Shown here piece after piece: positions 28,002 to 45,243 of a stretch of DNA of 64,000 nucleotides. Both the position numbers and the translations under genes were made by a program. Under the pieces are notes generated by a model, which worked only from the letters and a program-made list of their open reading frames with translations, was not told where the DNA came from and ran no database searches. Origin of the DNA: Glycomyces sp. TRM65418 (GTDB lineage: Bacteria > Actinomycetota > Actinomycetes > Mycobacteriales > Micromonosporaceae); contig NZ_JAJFAX010000001.1 of assembly GCF_019710475.1 (NCBI RefSeq), positions 992,001-1,056,000 on the forward strand. Direction: 5' to 3'. The first letter of the stretch is position 1, and every line of letters begins with the position of its first letter.

Positions 28002-30494
28002 CTACTTCCCTTCTGAACGGAGCGTGACGGGAATGCCGAGGGCGACCGGCGCGGCGTGCGAGCGGGCGGTCGTCCCGGCCGGGAACTTCTGGCCGCGGAC
28101 GGTCTCGAACTCGATCGACGGGTCGGGGGTCTCCGGCGCGTTCACGAAGGACACGAAGCGCTGGAGCTTCTCGGGGTCGTCGATGACGCCCTTCCACTCG
28201 TCGGCGTAGTTCTCGACGTGCTTCTCCATGAGGGCGTCGAGTTCGGCGCAGATGCCGAGCCGGTCGTCCACGATGACCTCGCGGAGGTAGTCGATGCCGC
28301 CTTCGAGGCCCTCGACCCACTTGGAGGTGCGCTGGAGCCGGTCGGCGGTGGAGATGTAGAACATGAGGAACCGGTCGATCGTGCGCACCAGCGTCTCGGT
28401 GTCCACGTCGGACAGGAGCAGGTCGGCGTGGCGCGGCGTGAAACCGCCGTTGCCGCCGACGTACAGGTTCCAGCCGTGCTCGGTGGCGATGACGCCGAAG
28501 TCCTTGCCGCGGGCCTCGGCGCATTCGCGCGCGCAGCCGGAGACGGCGGACTTGAGCTTGTGGGGGCTGCGCAGGCCCCGGTAGCGCAGTTCCAGGTCGA
28601 TGGCCATCTTCACCGAGTCCTGGACGCCGTAGCGGCACCAGTCGGTGCCGACGCAGGACTTCACGGTACGCAGGGCCTTGCCGTAGGCGTGCCCGGACTC
28701 GAAGCCGGCGTCCACGAGCTTGCGCCAGATCTTCGGCAGGTCCTCCACGCGGGCGCCGAACATGTCGATGCGCTGGCCGCCGGTGATCTTGGTGTAGAGA
28801 TCGAACTCCTTGGCGACCTCGCCGATGACGATGAGCTTCTCCGGGGTGATCTCGCCGCCGGGGATGCGCGGGACCACCGAGTAGGTGCCGTTGCGCTGCA
28901 GGTTCGCCAGGAAGTGGTCGTTGGTGTCCTGGAGGGCGGCCTGCTCGCCTTCGAGGATGTGCCCGTTCGAGAGGCTCGCGAGGATCGAGGCGACGGTGGG
29001 CTTGCACAGGTCGCAGCCGACGCCGGCGCCGTAGCGGGCGATGAGCTCGGAGAACGTCGTGATGCCGGTGACCTTGACGATGTCGAACAGCTCGGCCCGG
29101 GACTGGGCGAAGTGCTCGCACACGGCCTTGGAGACCTCGACGCCGCCCTCGGTGAGGAGCTGCTTGAGCATCGGGATGCACGAGCCGCACGAGGTGCCGG
29201 CCTTGGTGCAGGCCTTGAGTTCGGCGACGTCGTGGCAGCCCTCGTGGATGGCGCCCATGATCTCGCCCTTGGTGACGGCGTTGCACGAGCACACCTGCGC
29301 GCCCTCGGGCAGCGCCGCGTCCACTTCGCCGCCCGAGAGCAGGTCGGCGAGCGCGCCGGGGACCTTCCCGCCGACGCTGGCGCGCAGCAGCGGGTAGGGC
29401 TCGGCGTTGCCGACGAGCATCCCGCCGAGGAGGGTCGTGGCGTCGTCGGAGAGGACGAGCTTGGCGTAGGTGCCGTTCACCGGGTCCAGGTAGGTGGTGG
29501 CGAGCGGCCCGTCGAACGCGCCGAACTGGGCGACGTCGACGCCGAGGAGCTTGAGCTTGGTCGACATGTCCGCGCCCGGGAAGGTGGCCTCGCCGCCGGC
29601 GAGCCGGTCGGCGACGACCTCGGCCATCGAGTAGCCGGGGGCGACGAGCCCGTAGCACATGCCCTCCATCGCGGCGACCTCGCCGATGGCGTACACGTCG
29701 GGGTCGGAGGTCTGGCAGGACAGGTCGGTGAGGATGCCGCCGCGTTCGCCGACCTCGATGCCGCAGTCGCGGGCGAGCTGGTCGCGGGGGCGCACGCCCG
29801 CCGCGAAGACGATCAGGTCGGTGTCGAAGGCGACGCCGTCGCGGTTGGTCTCCATGCGCAGGCGGCCGTCGACCGCCTCGATCCTGGAGCCGCCGGTGCC
29901 GCAGTCGACCTTGATGCCGAGTTTCTCGATGTGCTGCTTGAGGATGCCGCCGCCGGCCTCGTCGAGCTGGCGGGCCATGAGCCACGGCGCGAACTCGACG
30001 ATCTGGGTCTCCAGGCCGAGGAGCTTCAGCGCGTTCGCCGCTTCGAGGCCGAGCAGGCCGCCGCCGATGACGACGCCGTGGCGGCGTCCCTCGGCGTGGG
30101 CCTTGATCGACTCGAGGTCCTCGATGGTGCGGTAGACGAACACGCCGTCGAGGTCCGCGCCCTCCATCGGCGGCACGAACGCGTACGAGCCGGTGGCGAA
30201 CACGAGCTTGTCGTAGGGGTACTCGCCGGACTCGGAGCGCACCGCCTTCGCGTCGCGGTCGACGGCGACCGCGGGCTCGCCGAGCCGGACCTCCACACCG
30301 GGCAGGTCCGAGGCGAGCGAGAGCTCCTCGGCGCTCACCCCGTCGAAGAACGCCGACAGGCGCACCCGGTCGTAGGCCGGGCGCGGCTCCTCGCACAGGA
30401 CCGTGACGTCCCAGGACGGGTCGCGCTGGGTGACCGCCTCCAGGAACCGGCGGCCGACCATGCCGTCGCCGATGACTACCAAACGCTTGCTCAT
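28002..30494 (-). CDS. nirB: NADH-dependent assimilatory nitrite reductase large subunit
   Basis: An 830-residue enzyme. The N-terminal FAD/NAD(P) domain has GDGMVGRRF and GGGLLGLEAAN. The BFD [2Fe-2S] region has CSCNAVTKG and GTSCGSC. The C-terminal siroheme/[4Fe-4S] domain has the ferredoxin-like half and cluster ligands in SGCARECAEA, with GTDWC upstream. It reduces nitrite to ammonium with NADH. Full length for the family. ATG 30494 overlaps the stop of the upstream oxidoreductase by 4 nt, so the whole block 31930-26489 reads as one operon. Confidence 0.96.
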   Translation of the reverse strand: MSKRLVVIGDGMVGRRFLEAVTQRDPSWDVTVLCEEPRPAYDRVRLSAFFDGVSAEELSLASDLPGVEVRLGEPAVAVDRDAKAVRSESGEYPYDKLVFATGSYAFVPPMEGADLDGVFVYRTIEDLESIKAHAEGRRHGVVIGGGLLGLEAANALKLLGLETQIVEFAPWLMARQLDEAGGGILKQHIEKLGIKVDCGTGGSRIEAVDGRLRMETNRDGVAFDTDLIVFAAGVRPRDQLARDCGIEVGERGGILTDLSCQTSDPDVYAIGEVAAMEGMCYGLVAPGYSMAEVVADRLAGGEATFPGADMSTKLKLLGVDVAQFGAFDGPLATTYLDPVNGTYAKLVLSDDATTLLGGMLVGNAEPYPLLRASVGGKVPGALADLLSGGEVDAALPEGAQVCSCNAVTKGEIMGAIHEGCHDVAELKACTKAGTSCGSCIPMLKQLLTEGGVEVSKAVCEHFAQSRAELFDIVKVTGITTFSELIARYGAGVGCDLCKPTVASILASLSNGHILEGEQAALQDTNDHFLANLQRNGTYSVVPRIPGGEITPEKLIVIGEVAKEFDLYTKITGGQRIDMFGARVEDLPKIWRKLVDAGFESGHAYGKALRTVKSCVGTDWCRYGVQDSVKMAIDLELRYRGLRSPHKLKSAVSGCARECAEARGKDFGVIATEHGWNLYVGGNGGFTPRHADLLLSDVDTETLVRTIDRFLMFYISTADRLQRTSKWVEGLEGGIDYLREVIVDDRLGICAELDALMEKHVENYADEWKGVIDDPEKLQRFVSFVNAPETPDPSIEFETVRGQKFPAGTTARSHAAPVALGIPVTLRSEGK

Positions 30495-31930
30495 CGCGCT
30501 GACACCTCATTCAATTGCGCAGTGCCCATCTTCTCGGCGGCCCGGCCGATGCCAGCGACAGTGCTGTTCAACCATTTGCAGAGTCCAGCGACGTCCTCGG
30601 CACACGTGCCGCAGCCGGTCGAGGCCTGCGTCGCCTCCGACAGGGCCTCAGGCGTCCGCGCCCCGTTGAGGAACGCGGAGCCGAGCTCCTTCTTCGTGAC
30701 GTTGTTGCAGCGGCAGACCACGACCTCGTCGGGCATGGACGCCGGGGTATCGGGGGCCACCGACACGGATTCGCCGGGGCGGCCCATCAGGAGGGTGCGG
30801 CGGTCGTGCGGCACCGGGTCGCCGGTGTCGAACAGCTGGACCACCTGGCCGACCATGGGGTTGTCGCCGAGCATGACCGCGCCCGCGAGGCGGCCCTCGG
30901 CGTCGATGACCAGGCGGGCGTAGGTGCCGCGGGCGGGATCGGCGAAGGAGACGACCTCGTCCCCTTCGACCTCGCCCATCGCGGCCAGGTCGATGCCGGA
31001 GGCCTTGAGGCGGGTCACCAGGCGCGAGCCCTCGTAGGCCGCGTCCGGGTTCACGCCGGAGAGGAGGTCGACGACCACGTCGGCCTGCTCCCAGGCGGGG
31101 CCGACCAGGCCGTAGGGGACGCCGCGGTGCTCGGCGCAGTCGCCCACGGCGAACACGTCCGGGTGGGAGGTGCGGCACTGGTCGTCGATGATCACGGCCT
31201 TGCCGCAGTCGATCCCCATGGCGCGGGCCAGGTCCGCGTTGGGGCGGATGCCGCAGGAGACGACCATGAGCTGCCCGGATACGGTGCGGCCGTCGGCCAG
31301 CACGAGGGTCAGGCCGTCGTCGCCGTGGATGACGCGCGTGGTCTGTGCATCCACAATGGACTCGACGCCGACCTCGGCGTACGCGTCGGCGAGGACCTTC
31401 GCGCCCAAGGGGTCGAGCTGGCGGTCCATGAGGTGCCCGGCGGCGTGCACCACCGTGACGTCCATGCCGCGCTTGGCGAGGCCGCGGGCGGCCTCGAGGC
31501 CGAGCAGGCCCCCGCCGAGCACGATCGCGCTGGCGCGGTTGGCGGCCTCGGTGAGGATGTTCCGGGCGTCGTCGATGGTGCGCAGGACGTACGCGCCGGT
31601 GGGCAGCGGCGCCAGGCCGGGGATCGGCGGGACGAACGCTTCGGCGCCGGTCGCGAGGACGAGCTTGTCGAAGGCGACCCCGTTCACGGTCTTCGCTTCG
31701 AGATCGACGTGCTCGACGGCCTCGCCGAGGCGCAGTTCGACGTGCTCGGGCGGGACCGGCAGGGCGATCTCGGTCTCGGACTGCTTGCCGGCGATCATGC
31801 TCGAGAGCAGGATGCGGTTGTAGGCGGCCTCGGACTCCGCTCCGAACACGGTGACCTCGACGCCGCGGCGCCCGAGTTCGCGGGCGATGCGGGCCCCGGC
31901 CATGCCGTAACCGACGATGGCGACCTTCAC
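30491..31930 (-). CDS. FAD/[2Fe-2S] oxidoreductase, nitrate reductase electron-transfer subunit (NasB-like)
   Basis: A 479-residue protein homologous to the N-terminal half of NirB. It has an FAD motif (GYGMAGARIARELG), an NAD motif (GGGLLGLEAARGL), the ATG-type FAD contact LVLATGAEAF and GDCAEHRG. A C-terminal BFD-like [2Fe-2S] domain has VVCRCNNVTKKE and STGCGTC. It most likely passes electrons from NADH to the nitrate reductase at 41599, as NasB does for NasC. It is the first gene of the nirBD operon. Confidence 0.88.
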   Translation of the reverse strand: MKVAIVGYGMAGARIARELGRRGVEVTVFGAESEAAYNRILLSSMIAGKQSETEIALPVPPEHVELRLGEAVEHVDLEAKTVNGVAFDKLVLATGAEAFVPPIPGLAPLPTGAYVLRTIDDARNILTEAANRASAIVLGGGLLGLEAARGLAKRGMDVTVVHAAGHLMDRQLDPLGAKVLADAYAEVGVESIVDAQTTRVIHGDDGLTLVLADGRTVSGQLMVVSCGIRPNADLARAMGIDCGKAVIIDDQCRTSHPDVFAVGDCAEHRGVPYGLVGPAWEQADVVVDLLSGVNPDAAYEGSRLVTRLKASGIDLAAMGEVEGDEVVSFADPARGTYARLVIDAEGRLAGAVMLGDNPMVGQVVQLFDTGDPVPHDRRTLLMGRPGESVSVAPDTPASMPDEVVVCRCNNVTKKELGSAFLNGARTPEALSEATQASTGCGTCAEDVAGLCKWLNSTVAGIGRAAEKMGTAQLNEVSAR

Positions 31931-35263
<3,333 letters not shown>

Positions 35264-35286: not shown

Positions 35287-35316
35287 TTGATCACTATGAT
35301 TCACACTGAATATTCT
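35287..35316 (+). promoter_or_regulatory. probable sigma-70-type promoter of the DUF4239 gene
   Basis: TTGATC (35287-35292) and TATTCT (35311-35316) with an 18-nt spacer, in a locally AT-rich patch. Expected start of transcription is near 35323, which favours the translation start at 35341 over the in-frame ATG 35296. Confidence 0.5.
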
Positions 35317-35340
35317 GCTTTATGGGGTTTGGTGAGTTCA

Positions 35341-36126
35341 ATGGCCATTTGGTGGCAAGGATTGCTGTTCGCACTCGTGGTGGTCGCTGGGGCCAGCGTG
35401 GTGGTGGCGCTGCTGCAGAAGTTCGCGCCGCCGACGGCGCGAGGACACAACAATGAACTCGGCACGACGCTGTTCGAGCTGCTCACGGTCCTGTACGCGA
35501 TCGTGCTGGCGTTCGTGCTCATCACGGCGTGGGAGAACAAGAACGAAGCGGGCCACGTGACCTTCAAGGAGGCGAACGAGCTGGTCGACGTCTACTGGTC
35601 GGCCGCGGCCTTCGAGCCCGCGCAGCGGGACGAGGTGCGGGCGGCGGTGCGGGCTTACACGAACGAGGTCATCGAGGAGGAGTGGCCCGCGATGCGAGAG
35701 CAGGATCCGGTCTCGTCGGAGGGCCTGCTGCTGCTGGACGCGATCCGGGCGCCGATCGCGGCCGTGCAGGCCGACGAGGACGCGGTCCAGGCGCGGCTTG
35801 ACACCACGCGCGACGGGATCCTGGCGGTGTCGGAATACCGCACCGACCGGCTGTTCCAGGCGCAGCGGGGGCTGGGCCCGGTCATGTGGACGGTGCTGGT
35901 GCCGGGGGCGCTCCTGGTGTTCGCGGTCATGCTCACGCTCGGCACGCCGACCCGGAAGTACCAGTTCGTGCTCGTGGGGCTCATCTCCGGCATGGTGGCG
36001 CTCATGCTGTTCGCCGCCTACCAGCTCGAGTTCCCGTTCAGCCGCGGCGGGGCCACCGGGCCGACGGCCTACCAGACGGCGGTCGAGCGCTTCGACGCGA
36101 TTGACGAGCTCTATACGCGTTTATGA
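35341..36126 (+). CDS. DUF4239 (bestrophin-like) membrane protein
   Basis: A 261-residue protein. Two N-terminal transmembrane helices (GLLFALVVVAGASVVVAL and LFELLTVLYAIVLAFVLITAW) are followed by a soluble helical region of ~120 residues and two C-terminal helices (VMWTVLVPGALLVFAVML and FVLVGLISGMVALMLFAAYQ). This is the DUF4239 layout; function is unknown. ATG 35341 has GGTGAG 4-5 nt upstream and lies 18 nt from the predicted transcription start; ATG 35296 would add 15 residues but overlaps the promoter. It lies between the geosmin synthase and the encapsulin. Confidence 0.82.
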   Translation: MAIWWQGLLFALVVVAGASVVVALLQKFAPPTARGHNNELGTTLFELLTVLYAIVLAFVLITAWENKNEAGHVTFKEANELVDVYWSAAAFEPAQRDEVRAAVRAYTNEVIEEEWPAMREQDPVSSEGLLLLDAIRAPIAAVQADEDAVQARLDTTRDGILAVSEYRTDRLFQAQRGLGPVMWTVLVPGALLVFAVMLTLGTPTRKYQFVLVGLISGMVALMLFAAYQLEFPFSRGGATGPTAYQTAVERFDAIDELYTRL

Positions 36127-36216: not shown

Positions 36217-37641
36217 ATGACCGATTCCGCCGTCGAAAGCACTCCGGCCGTCCCTTCGCAGACGTCGAACGGACAGCAACCGCAGACCAGCCTCAGCACC
36301 GCCGCCGCTCGCAACCTCGCCAGCACCACCAAGTCCGCTCCGCAGATGCAGGAGATCACCTCTCGGTGGCTCCTGAAGATCCTGCCGTGGGTGCAGACCC
36401 AGGGCGGCGCGTTCCGGGTCAACCGGCGGCTGACGCACACCGTCGGCGACGGTCGCGTGGAGTTCACCAATGAAGGGGACGACGTCCGCGTCATCCCCAC
36501 TGAACTCGGCGAGATCGCGCACCTGCGCGGCATCGACGACGAAGCGGTCCTGAGCGCGCTCGCCGACCGCTTCGAGCAGCGCGAGGTCGGCGCCGGGGAG
36601 CACCTGGCCCAGCGGGGCCGGCCGATCGACGGCCTGCACCTCATCGCGCACGGCCGCGTCGAGCAGTTCGGTTCGGGCCCCTTCGGCGACCAGTCCTCGC
36701 TCGGCCTCATGGTCGACGGCGACCACTTCGGCGACGAGATCCTCACCGAGGACGGACCGGTGTGGGACCACGACGTCATCGCGGCGACCCCGGCCATCGT
36801 GCTCACCCTCCCGGCGTCCGCGGTCGCCGAACTCGTGGAGCGGATCCCGGTGCTGGCCCGGCACCTCGAGCAGTTCCGGGCGAACCGCTCCGCCAAGACG
36901 AACAAGCACGGCGAGTCGGCGATCGACATCGCGGCGGGCCACACCGGCGAGCCGGACCTGCCGCGCACGTTCGTGGACTACGAGCTCAAGCCGCGCGAGT
37001 ACGAGCTGTCGGTGGCGCAGACCGTGCTGCGCGTCCACACGCGCGTCGCGGACCTGTACAACAAGCCGATGAACCAGATGGAGCAGCAGCTGCGGCTCAC
37101 CGTGGAAGCCCTGCGCGAGCAGCAGGAGGAGCAGATGGTGAACAACCGCGAGTTCGGGCTCCTGCACAACGCGTCGCTCGACCAGCGCATCCCCACCCGT
37201 TCGGGCCCGCCGACCCCGGACGACATGGACGAGCTGATCAGCCGCCGCCGCAAGCCCGAGTACCTGCTCGCCCACCCGAAGGCGATCGCCGCGCTCGGCC
37301 GCGAGTGCACCAAGCGGGGCATCTACCCGAACACGGTGGACTTCCACGGGCACCACATCCCGGCGTGGCGCGGGATCCCGATCCTGCCGTGCAACAAGAT
37401 CCCGATCACCTCGGCGAACACCACGTCGATCCTCTGCATGCGCACCGGCGAGGAGGAGCAGGGCGTCGTCGGCCTGCACCAGACCGGCCTGCCCGACGAG
37501 TACGAGCCCGGCCTCTCGGTGCGCTTCATGGGCATCGACGAGAAGGCGGTCATGTCCTACCTCGTCAGCGCCTATTTCTCCGTGGCGGTCCTGGTCCCCG
37601 ACGCGCTCGGCATCCTCGAGCACGTCGAGATCGGACGCTGA
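36217..37641 (+). CDS. Family 2B encapsulin shell protein with cNMP-binding-like domain
   Basis: A 474-residue HK97-fold shell protein of the EshA/Family 2B type. Residues 1-45 are a disordered Ser/Thr/Gln-rich arm. Residues ~46-98 and ~216-474 form the split capsid fold, including [25 protein letters not shown], the long helix [23 protein letters not shown], and the A-domain-like [43 protein letters not shown]. Residues ~100-215 are an inserted Crp/Fnr-type cyclic-nucleotide-binding domain ([16 protein letters not shown] and [10 protein letters not shown]) that lacks a clear RxA phosphate-binding Arg, so ligand binding is doubtful. RBS GAGGA is 9 nt before the ATG. A polyprenyl synthase follows, the expected cargo. 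Confidence 0.95.
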
Positions 37642-37646
37642 GCAGC

Positions 37647-37685
37647 CCCGGGCGGCCGCACCGCGCACCACCGCGGCCGCCCGGG
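37647..37685 (+). terminator. 13-bp hairpin after the encapsulin gene
   Basis: CCCGGGCGGCCGC (37647-37659) pairs perfectly with 37673-37685, loop 13 nt. It starts 5 nt after the encapsulin stop and has no U-tract. It may end most shell transcripts while allowing some read-through. Confidence 0.6.
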
Positions 37686-37742
37686 CCCCCGCCCGTGTCC
37701 GAGCACGGCGCTTCGAGAGCACAGTTGACGAGAGTGTCGAAC

Positions 37743-37771
37743 GTCGCGAAGCGGCACCGCCGCTTCGCGAC
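37743..37771 (+). repeat. 12-bp hairpin upstream of the polyprenyl synthase gene
   Basis: GTCGCGAAGCGG (37743-37754) pairs perfectly with CCGCTTCGCGAC (37760-37771), loop CACCG. It is 75 nt upstream of the synthase start. It could be an operator or an RNA structure; no family is recognised. Confidence 0.55.
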
Positions 37772-37845
37772 GCCGTCCGGAGACCGAGCACCGCAGACCC
37801 CATCGAGCCGGAGCGCCGCGTTCCGCCACCGCCCAGGGAGGCCCC

Positions 37846-39102
37846 ATGACCGTCCTGACCGACCGCCACCGTGCCAGCAAGTACCGCGCCGAACGCGAGG
37901 CCATCGACGACGGACTGCGCGCGGCCGCCGGCAGGCTGCCGGGCCCCGCGGCCCGCATCGCGGCCTACCACTTCGGCTGGACCGACACCGCGGGCGAACC
38001 CGTCGAGGCCAACTCCGGCAAGGCCCTCCGGCCGCTGCTGACGCTGCTGGCAGCCAAGGCGATCGACGACGAGGCCTGGCGGCAGGCCGTCCCCGCCGCC
38101 GTGGCCGTCGAGATGATCCACAACTTCTCCCTCATCCACGACGACATCATCGACCGCGACAGCCTCCGGCGGCACCGGCCGACCGCCTGGAAGGTCTACG
38201 GCGTCAACGACGCGATCCTGGTCGGCGACGCCCTGCACGCGCTCGCGTTCGAGATCATCGCCGAAGCCGGCGGCGACCGGGCCGCGGTGGGGGCGGGCGT
38301 GCTCGCGCAGACGGTGCGGTCCCTCATCGAAGGGCAGCTGGCGGACACGCGTTTCGAGACCCGCGACCGCGTCGAGCTCGACGAGTGCGTGGCGATGTCC
38401 GAGGCGAAGACCGCCTCGCTCATGGGCTGCGCCACGGCCCTCGGGGCCCTCTTCGGCGGCGGCACCCGCGAGCAGGTGGACGCGCTGCGGGACTTCGGAT
38501 TCCGCCTGGGTCTCGCCTTCCAGCACGTGGACGACCTGCTCGGGATCTGGGGTGACCCCGCGGTCACCGGCAAGGCCGTGTACTCGGACCTGCGCAACCG
38601 CAAGAAGTCGCTGCCGGTGACGGCGGCGCTGGGATCCGGCCACGCCGACGCGCCCGAACTCGCCGAGCTCTACAACGCCACCGGCCAGCTCACCGAGGCC
38701 GAACTGCGCCGGGCCGCCGATCTGGTGGAGGCGTGCGGTGGACGGCACGCGAGCCGCCGATCGGCCGAGACGCTCACCGAGGCGGCCACCGGCAGCCTCG
38801 CCGCGGCCGGGCTGCGGCCCGAGGTGGTGGCCGAGCTGACGGGCCTGGCCGCGAGCACGGTCGACAGGGCCAATTTATGGCGCAGGAGCAACGGCGAGAC
38901 AGTGGATCGCAGGACCGCGAACCGCCCCGAGAGCACCCGCCTCCGGCCGGCCGGCCCCCCCGGGGTCAGCGGGCGAGCGCGGCCCGGCGCGTGCTGCTGC
39001 CCGCGCCGCGGTCGTTCTGCGCCGGGGTGGAACGGGCGATCGAGATCGTCGAGCGGCTCCTGGAGCAGCACGGGCCGCCGGTGTACGTGCGCAACCAAAT
39101 AG
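37846..39102 (+). CDS. all-trans polyprenyl diphosphate synthase, predicted encapsulin cargo
   Basis: A 418-residue frame. The prenyltransferase fold covers residues ~1-345. Motifs are GKALRP (residues 59-64), first Asp-rich motif DDIID (99-103), basic RRHR downstream, KT near 188-189, and the second Asp motif written DDLLG (229-233) as in other actinobacterial enzymes. It elongates IPP onto an allylic primer; product length is probably C15-C20 but cannot be fixed. GGGAGG precedes the ATG. There is no stop at the domain end: from residue ~345 the frame gives a basic, Cys/Arg/Ser-rich tail (ending RRCTCATK) that is the -1 frame of ispH, overlapping it by 226 nt. Confidence 0.9.
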   Translation: MTVLTDRHRASKYRAEREAIDDGLRAAAGRLPGPAARIAAYHFGWTDTAGEPVEANSGKALRPLLTLLAAKAIDDEAWRQAVPAAVAVEMIHNFSLIHDDIIDRDSLRRHRPTAWKVYGVNDAILVGDALHALAFEIIAEAGGDRAAVGAGVLAQTVRSLIEGQLADTRFETRDRVELDECVAMSEAKTASLMGCATALGALFGGGTREQVDALRDFGFRLGLAFQHVDDLLGIWGDPAVTGKAVYSDLRNRKKSLPVTAALGSGHADAPELAELYNATGQLTEAELRRAADLVEACGGRHASRRSAETLTEAATGSLAAAGLRPEVVAELTGLAASTVDRANLWRRSNGETVDRRTANRPESTRLRPAGPPGVSGRARPGACCCPRRGRSAPGWNGRSRSSSGSWSSTGRRCTCATK

Positions 39103-39914
39103 TCCACAATGCACACGTGGTGGCCGACCTGGAGTCGCGGGGCGCGGTGTTCGTCAGCGAGCTCGACGAGGTGCCCGAGCAGGCGCTGGTGGTGTTCAGC
39201 GCCCACGGGGTGGCCCCGGCGGTGGAGCAGGAGGCGGCCGAACGCGGACTCGACGCGGTGGACGCGACGTGCCCGCTGGTGGCGAAGGTCCACGCGGAGG
39301 CCAAGCGCGCCGCCGACGCCGGCGACACGGTGATCTTGATCGGACACGAGGGCCACGAGGAGGTCGTGGGGACGATGGGCATCGCCCCGGGGCGGACCCT
39401 CCTGATCGAATCGGCGGACGAGGTCCCGGATCTGCGGGTGGAGAACCGGGACAAGATCACGTACCTGAGCCAGACCACGCTCGCGGTGCCCGAGGTCGAG
39501 GCGATCGCCGCAGCGCTGAAGCGGCGCTTCCCGATGATCAAGGGCCAGGGCGCGGACGACATCTGCTACGCGACGACGAACCGCCAGGCGGCCGTGGCGG
39601 CCGTGGTCGACGAGGCGGACCTGGTGCTGGTCGTGGGTTCGGCCAACTCGAGCAACAGCACTCGGCTCGTGGAACTGGCCCGGAACGCCGGGGTGGAGGC
39701 CCACTTGATCGAGAACGCCGGCGCCATGCGCGCCGCTTGGCTGGCGAACGCGAGGACCGTCGCCGTGACGGCGGGGGCCTCGGCACCGCCGAGGCTGGTG
39801 GACGAGGTGGTCGCCGCGATCGCGGCGGAGGGCCCGATCGAGGTGGTCGAGCGGCGTATCGCCGAGGAGACGCAGGAATTCCTGCTGCCGCAGCGGCTTC
39901 GCAACTGCGGCTAG
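38877..39914 (+). CDS. ispH: 4-hydroxy-3-methylbut-2-enyl diphosphate reductase with N-terminal extension
   Basis: A 345-residue [4Fe-4S] enzyme of the MEP pathway that reduces HMBPP to IPP and DMAPP. The three cluster cysteines are Cys48 (APRSFCAGVERA), Cys132 (DATCPLVAK) and Cys230 (DDICYATTNRQ). Substrate-binding HGVAP, GHEGHEE and SSNS motifs are present. ATG 38877 has AGGG 7 nt upstream and gives a ~37-residue charged, Pro/Arg-rich lead before the normal start of the fold (RRVLLPAP), which most IspH proteins lack. Its first 75 codons lie inside the polyprenyl synthase frame. A later start (GTG 38991) is possible but has no Shine-Dalgarno. This may be a second IspH dedicated to the encapsulin operon. 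Confidence 0.93.
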   Translation: MAQEQRRDSGSQDREPPREHPPPAGRPPRGQRASAARRVLLPAPRSFCAGVERAIEIVERLLEQHGPPVYVRNQIVHNAHVVADLESRGAVFVSELDEVPEQALVVFSAHGVAPAVEQEAAERGLDAVDATCPLVAKVHAEAKRAADAGDTVILIGHEGHEEVVGTMGIAPGRTLLIESADEVPDLRVENRDKITYLSQTTLAVPEVEAIAAALKRRFPMIKGQGADDICYATTNRQAAVAAVVDEADLVLVVGSANSSNSTRLVELARNAGVEAHLIENAGAMRAAWLANARTVAVTAGASAPPRLVDEVVAAIAAEGPIEVVERRIAEETQEFLLPQRLRNCG

Positions 39915-41598: not shown

Positions 41599-43683
41599 TT
41601 AAGGCCTCGCGGCGGGCGCGATCTTGACGGCGCAGACCTTGAACTCGGGCATGCGGCTGATCGGGTCGAGCACGTCCGAGACGGCGGCGTTGGCGTTGGC
41701 CGCGCCGGGGAAGTGGAACGGGCTGAAGACGGTGTCGGGCCGGATGTCGGCGGTGAGCCGCGCCGGTGCGGTGTAGGAGCCGCGCCGGGAGGTGATGCGG
41801 ACCCAGTCGCCTTCGCCGATGCCGTGGCGCACGGCGGTGTCGGGGTGGATCTGGAGGAACTGCTCGCTGTCGGGGGTGCCGCCGAGGGATTCGATGAGGC
41901 GGGTCTGCGCGCCGGACTGGTACTGGGTGAGGACGCGGCCCGTGGTGAGGTACAGCGGGTAGACGTTGTCGCGGCGTTCGGCGGGGTGTCGGTGGTCGAC
42001 GGCGACGAACTTGGCCTTGCCGTCCGGGGTGTTGAACGTGAAGTCGGCGAACATGCGCGGGGTGCCGTCGTGGTCGGGGCTCGGGACGGGCCACTGGAAG
42101 GTGCGTGCTTCAAGGCGCTCATAGGAGACGCCGGAGTAGTCGGCCTTGCCGCCGGCGGAGGCGCGGCCGAGTTCCTCGAAGATCGACGCGGGGTCGGTGG
42201 AGTAGGCGCCGGGGGCGTCGAGGCGGTCGGCCAGTTCCTTCATGATCCACAGGTCGGAGTGGACGCCGTCGGGGGCGTCTCGGAGGGACCGGCGGCGGAT
42301 GATGCGGCCTTCGAGGTCGGTCATGGTGCCGTCCTCTTCGGCCCATTGGGTGACGGGGAGGACCACTTCGGCGAGCTGGGCGGTCTCGGAGAGGACGAAG
42401 TCGAACGAGACGAGGCAGTCGAGGGCTTTGAGGCGGTCGGCGACGCGTGCGGCGCGGGGGGCCGAGACGATCGGGTTGGAGCCGAGCACGAAGAGCATCT
42501 TGACGTCGTCGCCGCATTTGCGGAGCAGTTCGACCGCGGAGACGCCGGCGCCGGGGAGGGTCTCGGGGGCGACGCCCCACACCTTCGCGACGTGTTCGCG
42601 GGCGGCCGGGTCGGTGATCGAGCGGTAGCCGGGGAGCTGGTCGGCCTTCTGGCCGTGCTCGCGGCCGCCTTGGCCGTTGCCTTGGCCGGTGATGCAGCCG
42701 TAGCCGGAGGAGGGCTTGCCGGGCAGGCCGAGGGCGAGCGCGAGGTTGATCCAGGCGGTGACGGTGTCGACGCCCTTGGCGTGCTGCTCGGAGCCGCGCG
42801 CGGTGAGGATGACGGTCTTCTTGGGTCTCGGCGATCCTTGCGGGTCGTCAATGGGCCCCGCCATGAGGCGGGCGGCCGCGTAGAGGTCCGGGACCGAGAC
42901 GCCGGTGATGCGCTCGACGAACGCGGGCCAGTAGCCGGCGGCGGTCTGGCGGACCTCGTCGAAGCCGGTGGTGTGGGCGTCGATGTAGTCGTGGTCGAGG
43001 TAGCCCTGCTCGATCGCGATGTGCAGGAGGCCGTTCGCGAGCGCGAGGTCGGTGCCGGGGGCCGGCTGGAGGTGGAGCTGGGCCTGCTCGGCGGTGGCGG
43101 TGCGCCGGGGGTCGACGACGATGAGCTCGGCGTTCGCGAGGAACCGCATGAGCGGCGGCATGGTCTCGGCGGGGTTGGCGCCAACGAGGACGACGACGTC
43201 GGCGTCTTTCAGGTCGTCCTTGGGGAAGGGCAGGCCGCGGTCGACGCCGAAGGAGCGGTTGAGCGCGCCTGCCGCGGAGGACATGCAGAAGCGGCCGTTG
43301 TAGTCGATGTGCTTGCTGCCGAGGGCGAGCCGGGTCCACTTGCCGAGCTGGTAGACCTTCTCGTTCGTGAGGCCGCCGCCGCCGAAGACGCCGACGGCGT
43401 CCTTGCCGTGCGCGGCCTGGACGGCGCGGATGCGGTCGGCGACGTGGTCGAGGGCGGTCTCCCAGGAGACGGGTTCGCCGTGGAGCAGCGGGGTGGTGAG
43501 CCGCTTCGGGTGGTCGAGGAGCTCGGGCGCGGTCCAGCCCTTCTTGCACATGCCGCCGCCGCGGGGCGAGGCGGTGACCGTGCCTTCGGTGTCCTCCTCC
43601 AGGCGCATGCCGCACTGCAGCGCGCAGTACGGGCAGTGGGTGTCGGCGGTGCGGACGACGGGGAGGGCGGTGCGAACGGTCAT
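41599..43683 (-). CDS. nasC: assimilatory nitrate reductase catalytic subunit (Mo-bis-MGD)
   Basis: A 694-residue molybdoenzyme. The N-terminal [4Fe-4S] site is CPYCALQCGM with CKKGW further on, then the Mo-MGD domains (NGRFCMSSAAGALNRSFGVDRG, GANPAETMPPLM and ARGSEQHAKG) and the C-terminal MGD-binding domain (LTTGRVLTQYQSG). The conserved MoCo-ligand Cys is in RFCMSS. It reduces nitrate to nitrite in the cytosol; electrons likely come from the FAD protein at 30491. Length fits the form without a C-terminal BFD domain. It is downstream of narK on the same strand, separated by 156 nt and a hairpin. Confidence 0.94.
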   Translation of the reverse strand: MTVRTALPVVRTADTHCPYCALQCGMRLEEDTEGTVTASPRGGGMCKKGWTAPELLDHPKRLTTPLLHGEPVSWETALDHVADRIRAVQAAHGKDAVGVFGGGGLTNEKVYQLGKWTRLALGSKHIDYNGRFCMSSAAGALNRSFGVDRGLPFPKDDLKDADVVVLVGANPAETMPPLMRFLANAELIVVDPRRTATAEQAQLHLQPAPGTDLALANGLLHIAIEQGYLDHDYIDAHTTGFDEVRQTAAGYWPAFVERITGVSVPDLYAAARLMAGPIDDPQGSPRPKKTVILTARGSEQHAKGVDTVTAWINLALALGLPGKPSSGYGCITGQGNGQGGREHGQKADQLPGYRSITDPAAREHVAKVWGVAPETLPGAGVSAVELLRKCGDDVKMLFVLGSNPIVSAPRAARVADRLKALDCLVSFDFVLSETAQLAEVVLPVTQWAEEDGTMTDLEGRIIRRRSLRDAPDGVHSDLWIMKELADRLDAPGAYSTDPASIFEELGRASAGGKADYSGVSYERLEARTFQWPVPSPDHDGTPRMFADFTFNTPDGKAKFVAVDHRHPAERRDNVYPLYLTTGRVLTQYQSGAQTRLIESLGGTPDSEQFLQIHPDTAVRHGIGEGDWVRITSRRGSYTAPARLTADIRPDTVFSPFHFPGAANANAAVSDVLDPISRMPEFKVCAVKIAPAARP

Positions 43684-43745
43684 GGGGCGAGTGTGCCCAG
43701 GGGTCGTTTCGGCGTCACGTGAGCCGTGTTTCCGGGATGCTAAGT

Positions 43746-43780
43746 GGCCCGCAATCGTCCTCGGGTGGCGATTGCGGGCC
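43746..43780 (-). terminator. 12-bp hairpin between narK and nasC
   Basis: GGCCCGCAATCG (43746-43757) pairs perfectly with CGATTGCGGGCC (43769-43780), loop 11 nt. It sits 60 nt after the narK stop and would attenuate read-through into nasC. Confidence 0.6.
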
Positions 43781-43839
43781 GGGCGTGCGACCGTGCGACG
43801 ACGATGTCCCAGTCGAGGGGCGCGGGGATCGGACCGGGG

Positions 43840-45243
43840 TCAGACCTTGGCGTAGGCGAGGCTCGGGGCGCGGTCGACGAAGACCTTGCGCTGGTAGAAC
43901 CACCAGTTCAGACCCAGGAAGACCGCGTAGCCGGCGAGGAAGACGTACATGGCGACGACGACCGAGCCGGTCTGCTCGTTGGAGATGCGGAAGCCCTGAT
44001 TGATGAGGAACCCGCCGAACGCGCCGATGGCGGAGATCCAGCCGAGCGCGGCGGCGGTGAGCTTCTTGGCCTGCACGACCTCGGCCTCGGTGGTCGGGCG
44101 TCCGGCGGAGGCGGCGGCCTCGGCCTGGAAGATCGCCGGGATGGACCGGTAGGTCGAGCCGTTGGCGATGCCGCTCATGAGGAACAGGACCATGAAGGAG
44201 GTGAAGAACAGCGCGAACGAGCCGGTGTCGATGCCGGCGATCGCGCCGAGGACGCCGCCGCCCATCACGATGAACGCGAGGCTGGTGATCGGGGCGCCGG
44301 CCCGCTTGTCGGCGAGCCAGCCGCCGACGGGGCGCGCGAGGGAGCCGACCAGCGGCCCGAGCGCGGCCAGCCACAGCGACTGGAAGGCGGGGAACTCGAT
44401 CTTGATGACCAGCGGGAACGCGAACGAGTAGCCGATGAACGACCCGAACGTGCCGATGTAGAGGACGCTCATGATCCAGGTGTGCCTGCGCGTCAGGGCG
44501 GGCAGCTGCTGGCGCAGGGGCGTGCGGGAGACGGCGAGGTTGTCCATCGCGCGCCAGGCCATGAACGCGGCGAAGACGGCCAGGCCCATCCACAGCAGCG
44601 GCACGTTGTGGAGGAAGAACGCCGAGCCGGACTCGGTGGTGCCCTGCGAGGCGCCGACGACGCCGAGGCCGATGACCAGGGGGCCGACGAACTGGACGAC
44701 CGAGACGCCGATGTTGCCGCCGGCGGCGTTCACGCCGAGGGCGGCGCCCCGGTAGCGCTCGGGGTAGAAGTAGGAGATGTTGGCCATCGAGGAGGCGAAG
44801 TTGCCGCCGCCGAACCCGGCGGCGACCCCCGCGACGACGAACAGCCAGTACGGCGTGCCCGGCGTCATCACGCAGTAGGTGAGCAGCGAGGTCGGGACGA
44901 CCAGGAGCGCCGCGGAGATGACGGTCCAGTTGCGGCCGCCGAAGAGGGCGACCGCCGCGGTGTAGGGGATGCGCAGGAACGCGCCGACGAGGTTCGGGAC
45001 GGCGGTGAGCCAGAACAGCTGGCTGGTGCTGAAGCCGAAGCCCGCGGCGGCGAGGTAGGGGGTGATGATGCTGAACATCGTCCAGACCGAGAAGCCCAGG
45101 TGCTCGGCGAGCACCGACCAGCCGAGGTTGCGTTTGGCGACCTTGCGGCCGGTCTCGCGCCAGAAGGTCTCGTCGTCGGGGCGCCAGTCGGTGATCCAGC
45201 CCTTCCGGGCGGGACTCTCGGGTTTCGTCAGTGTCGCGGTCAT
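43840..45243 (-). CDS. narK: nitrate/nitrite MFS transporter
   Basis: A 467-residue NarK/NasA transporter with 12 transmembrane helices. It has the NNP signature GGGNFASSMANISYFYPERYRGAALG and a second copy at SGIANGSTYRSIPAIF. It imports nitrate (and can export nitrite) for the nitrate reductase downstream. The N-terminus (WRPDDETFWRETGRKVAKRNL) is characteristic of the NarK2/NarU-like actinobacterial subgroup. It is the first gene of its transcript. Confidence 0.95.
   Translation of the reverse strand: MTATLTKPESPARKGWITDWRPDDETFWRETGRKVAKRNLGWSVLAEHLGFSVWTMFSIITPYLAAAGFGFSTSQLFWLTAVPNLVGAFLRIPYTAAVALFGGRNWTVISAALLVVPTSLLTYCVMTPGTPYWLFVVAGVAAGFGGGNFASSMANISYFYPERYRGAALGVNAAGGNIGVSVVQFVGPLVIGLGVVGASQGTTESGSAFFLHNVPLLWMGLAVFAAFMAWRAMDNLAVSRTPLRQQLPALTRRHTWIMSVLYIGTFGSFIGYSFAFPLVIKIEFPAFQSLWLAALGPLVGSLARPVGGWLADKRAGAPITSLAFIVMGGGVLGAIAGIDTGSFALFFTSFMVLFLMSGIANGSTYRSIPAIFQAEAAASAGRPTTEAEVVQAKKLTAAALGWISAIGAFGGFLINQGFRISNEQTGSVVVAMYVFLAGYAVFLGLNWWFYQRKVFVDRAPSLAYAKV

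Follow-up and report, generated by a model that had tools for sequence, protein, structure and literature searches.

One of the solved Family 2B encapsulin shells, Protein Data Bank (PDB) entry 9bhu, is presumably SgEnc (EshA) of Streptomyces griseus, which is paired with a 2-methylisoborneol synthase. This pairing reportedly includes neither a prenyl synthase nor IspH. Precursor genes in Family 2B operons for terpene cyclases and prenyl transferases have already been published (PMC8346489). In that 2021 survey, the sequence GPTGLGTSAAR in the geosmin-synthase-like cyclases of these operons was put forward as a possible targeting sequence, and the encapsulin prenyl transferases were reported to have a disordered N terminus of 50 to 100 residues. 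In the two-component Family 2B shell of Streptomyces lydicus, the component Enc2 was reported to self-assemble alone, the luminal loop was proposed as a possible cargo-loading site, and Family 2B cyclic nucleotide monophosphate (cNMP)-like domains were reported not to bind cyclic nucleotides (PMC12407261). Here we describe a cluster in a 64,000-nucleotide stretch of the genome of the soil actinobacterium Glycomyces sp. TRM65418 (the window). Its five genes, all on the + strand, encode a synthase for geosmin, which has an earthy smell, a bestrophin-like protein, a Family 2B shell, a prenyl synthase, and IspH. We suggest, with a probability of about 0.6, that this is an encapsulin system for geosmin-type terpene synthesis, in which the shell holds the geosmin synthase and the IspH and prenyl synthase supply its substrate.

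RESULTS

The shell protein

The shell gene (36217..37641, +) starts with ATG at 36217, its stop codon ends at 37641, and it encodes 474 amino acids. The protein scored 763.4 bits against the Family 2B shell model NF041163 (cut-off, 400 bits). It has an HK97-type SrpI domain (PF19307, 469 bits) and an inserted cNMP-like domain (PF00027, 45 bits), and it is a near full-length match to the solved Family 2B shells 9bhu, 9bje, and 9bix (E of about 1e-195). The profile searches thus agree with the original prediction of a Family 2B shell with a cNMP-like domain. It is the only such shell in the genome, which also contains one geosmin synthase and two IspH genes.

The cNMP-like domain (36580..36843, +) was delimited by PF00027 and by alignments to CRP-family structures. 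Its 21-residue phosphate-binding cassette lacks the arginine that contacts the cAMP phosphate in functional cyclic-nucleotide-binding domains. The earlier doubt about second-messenger control was therefore well placed, also in light of the published absence of cyclic-nucleotide binding (PMC12407261).

By the motifs defined for S. lydicus, motif 1 of the shell is RRRK, as in Enc2, and its 10-residue luminal loop is closer to that of Enc1. Because Enc2 assembles alone, the RRRK motif leads us to expect a single, self-assembling shell. From its homologues, we infer that the assembly would be icosahedral.

A tagged geosmin synthase as the likeliest cargo

The gene at 32079..35093 (+), two genes upstream of the shell gene, encodes a geosmin-synthase-type terpene cyclase and is the only match to the geosmin synthase family in the genome. 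PF19086 matches it in two stretches, and the metal-binding motifs are DDHFL, NDLFSY, DDFYP, and NDVCSY. Its score against NF041168 is 1,094 bits, below the cut-off of 1,200 bits, which is reached in only 9 of the 39 genomes with such a cyclase. A 12-residue tag (33258..33293, +) that fits the consensus GPTGLGTSAAR (PMC8346489) is located between the two domains and is shared within Glycomyces. The geosmin synthase that had been noted close to the shell is thus a two-domain enzyme with a published candidate Family 2 cargo tag, and for this reason we consider it the likeliest cargo.

The tag follows linkage to a shell. Among 37 geosmin synthases whose position relative to a shell was clear, it was present in all 23 shell-linked enzymes but in only 4 of the 14 unlinked ones, two more of which had a degenerate version (Fisher P = 3e-6, or 8e-5 with the degenerate versions scored as tagged). 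However, the unlinked enzymes all come from a single genus (g23), so the test is partly confounded by ancestry, and we take the association as support rather than proof.

The C-terminal tail of the geosmin synthase, about 240 residues long (34360-35093), is disordered and rich in Gly, Ser, and Ala. A stretch reading PPSWR(D/T)YL, in the place of a tag, is conserved in this tail in five of the six Glycomyces genomes and is missing from G. arizonensis. In two relatives (L007 and L009), the geosmin synthase frame extends into the bestrophin-like gene.

Conservation of the gene set

The host is Glycomyces-like, and the closest named shell, that of Glycomyces luteolus, is 92% identical. All five named Glycomyces relatives have these genes in the same order (geosmin synthase, bestrophin-like gene, shell, prenyl synthase, IspH), which argues against a chance grouping. 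Outside the genus, the set of shell, geosmin synthase, prenyl synthase, and IspH recurs in Phytomonospora (L037), in Nocardiopsis (L021), and in genomes G071 and G099. G099 had looked like a case of shell loss; this was dismissed, as its contig stops within a shell gene.

A prenyl synthase is present in 34 of the 80 closest Family 2B loci. In 12 of these 34, including loci of Nocardiopsis, Amycolatopsis, Saccharothrix, and Phytomonospora, IspH adjoins it, always on the same strand and within about 0.8 kb downstream. Most of these 5- to 10-Mb genomes have only one or two IspH copies, and yet the two genes are repeatedly adjacent; the neighborhood is therefore unlikely to be due to chance.

The prenyl synthase

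The gene downstream of the shell gene on the same strand (37846..39102, +) encodes an all-trans prenyl diphosphate synthase (PF00348, 200 bits), as had been predicted. Residues 1 to 343 are the native body, and the remainder is a stop-loss tail. At 38875..38877 (+) the codon is TTA, whereas relatives L007, L009, and L011 have TGA. The loss is confined to the window strain and adds about 75 out-of-frame residues (38878-39102) that overlap the start of ispH. This tail is rich in arginine and serine and lies outside every family model; it may be harmless, or it may be a sequencing error. We rejected a prenyl synthase-IspH fusion or a programmed frameshift because the relatives terminate at TGA and only the window strain has lost the stop.

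Against NF041169, the model for encapsulin polyprenyl transferase cargo, the synthase scored 420.6 bits, below the cut-off of 450 bits. Copies under the cut-off ranged from 341 to 435 bits, and those over it ranged from 451 to 500 bits. Despite this score, the synthase groups with shell-linked synthases in the tree (Shimodaira-Hasegawa-like approximate likelihood ratio test [SH-aLRT] support, 98). Capture of a hopanoid-type synthase beside the shell, hinted at by the 421 bits, is thus not supported by the tree. No disordered N-terminal domain of 50 to 100 residues was found, as the native protein begins at the fold. In a search of the prenyl synthase and IspH for the cargo tag, the best matrix scores were at background level.

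The original prediction had read the locus as a compartment for making or holding a prenyl diphosphate. In such a system the prenyl synthase would be the main cargo, IspH would supply it, and the shell would make, channel, or store the product. The gene lies directly after the shell gene, a shell and a polyprenyl transferase occur together in about 900 published systems (PMC8346489), and the tree places the synthase among shell-linked enzymes. However, the synthase has neither the tag nor the disordered N terminus, its NF041169 score is under the cut-off, and a tagged cyclase belongs to the same conserved set. We therefore regard this as unlikely and not as the best reading.

Both enzymes might instead be loaded, with the tag bringing in the geosmin synthase and another contact the prenyl synthase, to give a two-step reactor leading from C5 units to geosmin. 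There are 165 published systems that encode a cyclase together with a prenyl transferase (PMC8346489), and the single shell combines an Enc2-type motif 1 with an Enc1-like luminal loop, the latter being the proposed loading site (PMC12407261). Because we found no second loading signal on the prenyl synthase, we consider such co-loading quite improbable.

A dedicated IspH paralogue

The last gene (38877..39914, +) encodes an IspH, in agreement with the original prediction. It scored 297 bits against TIGR00216 (cut-off, 188 bits), and its alignment to the solved Escherichia coli enzyme shows all the Fe-S and substrate residues of the active site. We built a tree of 56 IspH proteins. In this tree, 27 copies that are linked to a prenyl synthase, or belong to the same lineage, lie on one side of a branch with SH-aLRT support of 97. 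Another group (support, 96) is formed by 28 unlinked copies, among them the other IspH of the window genome. By its position in the tree, the cluster IspH belongs to the prenyl-synthase-linked lineage and is a dedicated second paralogue, distinct from the housekeeping IspH of the genome. One exception is an IspH beside two Family 2B shells (L163:8018-8935, -, genome G131), which groups with the unlinked, housekeeping copies on a long branch. Two copies of the prenyl-synthase-linked lineage (L037:16377-17669 and L166:6593-7873) are extended at the N terminus by about 110 residues, a feature absent in Glycomyces. The extension of the L037 copy gave no Pfam match.

The linked clade occurs both with and without shells. 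At L154, an IspH of the same lineage and a prenyl synthase stand with a squalene/phytoene synthase, a squalene-hopene cyclase, and a radical S-adenosylmethionine (SAM) protein; this is a hopanoid cluster, and it has no shell in its vicinity. The hopanoid pathway also consumes farnesyl diphosphate. At L166, a prenyl synthase, IspH, 1-deoxy-D-xylulose 5-phosphate (DXP) synthase, and IspG follow one another. Because the pair also occurs in a hopanoid cluster that lacks a shell, it looks like a precursor-supply module that is used with different cyclases, rather than the content of the compartment.

Expression layout

A strong GC hairpin (37647..37685, +; -33 kcal/mol) lies directly 3' of the shell stop codon and is a possible terminator or attenuator. 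Perfect or near-perfect hairpins of -33 to -43 kcal/mol stand at this position in all six Glycomyces genomes, although that of G. arizonensis differs in sequence. A scan for sigma-70-type promoters and T-tract terminators gave no excess over shuffled sequences within the cluster. The hairpin may limit read-through, which would yield shell protein in excess of enzyme. Farther downstream, the stop codon of the prenyl synthase overlaps the IspH start codon (GTGA) in two relatives, which suggests coupling of the two genes. The earlier claim of an operon is likely but, with the hairpin in place, not proven.

The hairpin and the gap of 82 to 220 bp after the shell gene would also suit a locus of mere neighbors. 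In that case the prenyl synthase and IspH would feed another isoprenoid pathway, as their occurrence in a hopanoid cluster might indicate, and the shell would hold only the geosmin synthase, or nothing. However, several families of actinobacteria have shell, prenyl synthase, and IspH side by side, and in both trees the Glycomyces copies fall among the linked lineages. We think that such an arrangement is very unlikely.

Resemblance of the tag to the shell N-arm

Family 2B shells have a conserved start, the N-arm, of which a 16-residue stretch resembles the cargo tag. We built a seven-column matrix from only 20 distinct cyclase tags and ran it over the 1,194 predicted proteins of the loci. The N-arm (an 11-residue match) was the top-scoring site in 86 of the 88 shells. 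Forty shells outscored all 1,069 unrelated proteins, and column-permuted matrices gave at most 3 in 300 trials. Tags and N-arms even share identical readings, with LGTSAAR present in some shells and LGTAAAR in one of the cyclase tags. The 10-residue tag-like motif in the N-arm of the window shell (36292..36321, +), which contains LSTAAAR, scored high, yet not above all unrelated proteins.

One tentative and rather doubtful explanation is that the cargo tag (LGTSAAR) mimics the N-arm (LGTAAAR) and docks in a groove that is open to the N-arm of another subunit. In S. lydicus, the N-arm was resolved in Enc1 only; it was not resolved in Enc2, which has a wide two-fold pore (PMC12407261). An unoccupied N-arm groove may therefore exist. 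On the other hand, the cargo density at the three-fold axis of a Family 2A shell (PMC8049743) counts against N-arm mimicry. A Family 2A parallel was considered and set aside: the cargo motif LARLANEFFS (PMC8049743) only partly resembles the 2A N-arm AARQLAN, and the three-fold density speaks against a simple N-arm replacement. We found no mention of the tag/N-arm resemblance in the encapsulin literature searched, a scope that did not include the paper on the S. griseus 2-methylisoborneol synthase.

The bestrophin-like gene and the flanking region

Between the geosmin synthase and the shell lies a gene for a bestrophin-like membrane protein (35287..36126, +; PF14023, 173 bits). It is kept in all five named Glycomyces relatives, and in the other 38 genomes searched it was near no shell. 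A role as a general encapsulin partner was therefore rejected: weak matches were seen near 12 non-Glycomyces shells, but the 39 genomes showed no linkage outside Glycomyces. In several Kitasatospora and Streptomyces-type loci (L016, L017, L032, L044, L053, L060, and L083), such weak matches lie downstream of the shell gene, at a distance of up to about 2 kb.

On one side of the cassette are two neighboring NirB-like genes, and on the other are genes for a molybdopterin oxidoreductase and a major facilitator superfamily (MFS) transporter (28002-31930 and 41599-45243). It therefore apparently sits inside a nitrate-assimilation region. This flanking order is mostly common to other Glycomyces.

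DISCUSSION

What the sequences establish is the identity of the genes, their conserved order, the tag, and the history of the IspH paralogue. From these we propose the following route to a geosmin-type terpene. About 60 shell subunits would probably form a T=1 particle, which would take in the geosmin synthase via its 12-residue tag. IspH would convert (E)-4-hydroxy-3-methylbut-2-enyl diphosphate (HMBPP) to isopentenyl diphosphate (IPP) and dimethylallyl diphosphate (DMAPP) as a dedicated supply. The prenyl synthase would join IPP and DMAPP into a longer prenyl diphosphate, probably the C15 compound farnesyl diphosphate. Both supply enzymes would most likely act outside the shell.

Besides the single-genus origin of the unlinked geosmin synthases, several observations weigh against this proposal. 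The prenyl synthase has Phe at position -5 before DDIID, a feature usually linked to C20 geranylgeranyl diphosphate (GGPP) synthases, and its second-best NCBIfam match is the GGPP synthase IdsB. The second, C-terminal tag that is usual in most other taxa was not found in the Glycomyces geosmin synthase. Single shells of Streptomyces are accompanied by prenyl transferases alone, so these enzymes may be cargo by another route.

The locus extends the terpene encapsulins to a further genus, and its linked IspH proves to be a dedicated paralogue that has had a separate history. The geosmin synthase replaces the prenyl synthase as the likely cargo, and this alters the choice of what to assay. The tag/N-arm match also makes cargo recognition by Family 2B shells directly testable. 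If the mimicry holds, loading would make use of the N-arm sites that cryo-electron microscopy has left unresolved for the majority of Family 2B shells, and there could be a trade-off between the cargo load on one side and the stability of the shell and the width of its pore on the other.

Compared with known systems, the locus shares with the hopanoid cluster L154 the pairing of a prenyl synthase with an IspH from the same lineage of paralogues. However, L154 has a squalene/phytoene synthase and a squalene-hopene cyclase instead of a geosmin synthase, no shell is near, and its prenyl synthase falls in a separate clade. The two-component shell of S. lydicus (PMC12407261) has the same fold and a cNMP-like domain, and its Enc2 shares the RRRK motif with the window shell; the window has one shell gene instead of two, with an Enc1-like luminal loop. 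The window shell aligns with SgEnc of S. griseus (9bhu) over 452 residues, and both systems have a cNMP-like domain and a tagged terpene cyclase, although the cyclase is monoterpenoid there and geosmin-type here. The Family 2B terpene cyclase and polyprenyl transferase operons (PMC8346489) often have two shell genes with a cyclase and a transferase, whereas there is one shell gene here. The Glycomyces locus further differs from them in its interposed bestrophin-like gene, in the missing C-terminal tag copy, and in a prenyl synthase without the disordered N terminus of 50 to 100 residues. It is nevertheless like these operons in its shell, its tagged geosmin-synthase-like cyclase, its prenyl transferase, and its gene for precursor biosynthesis.

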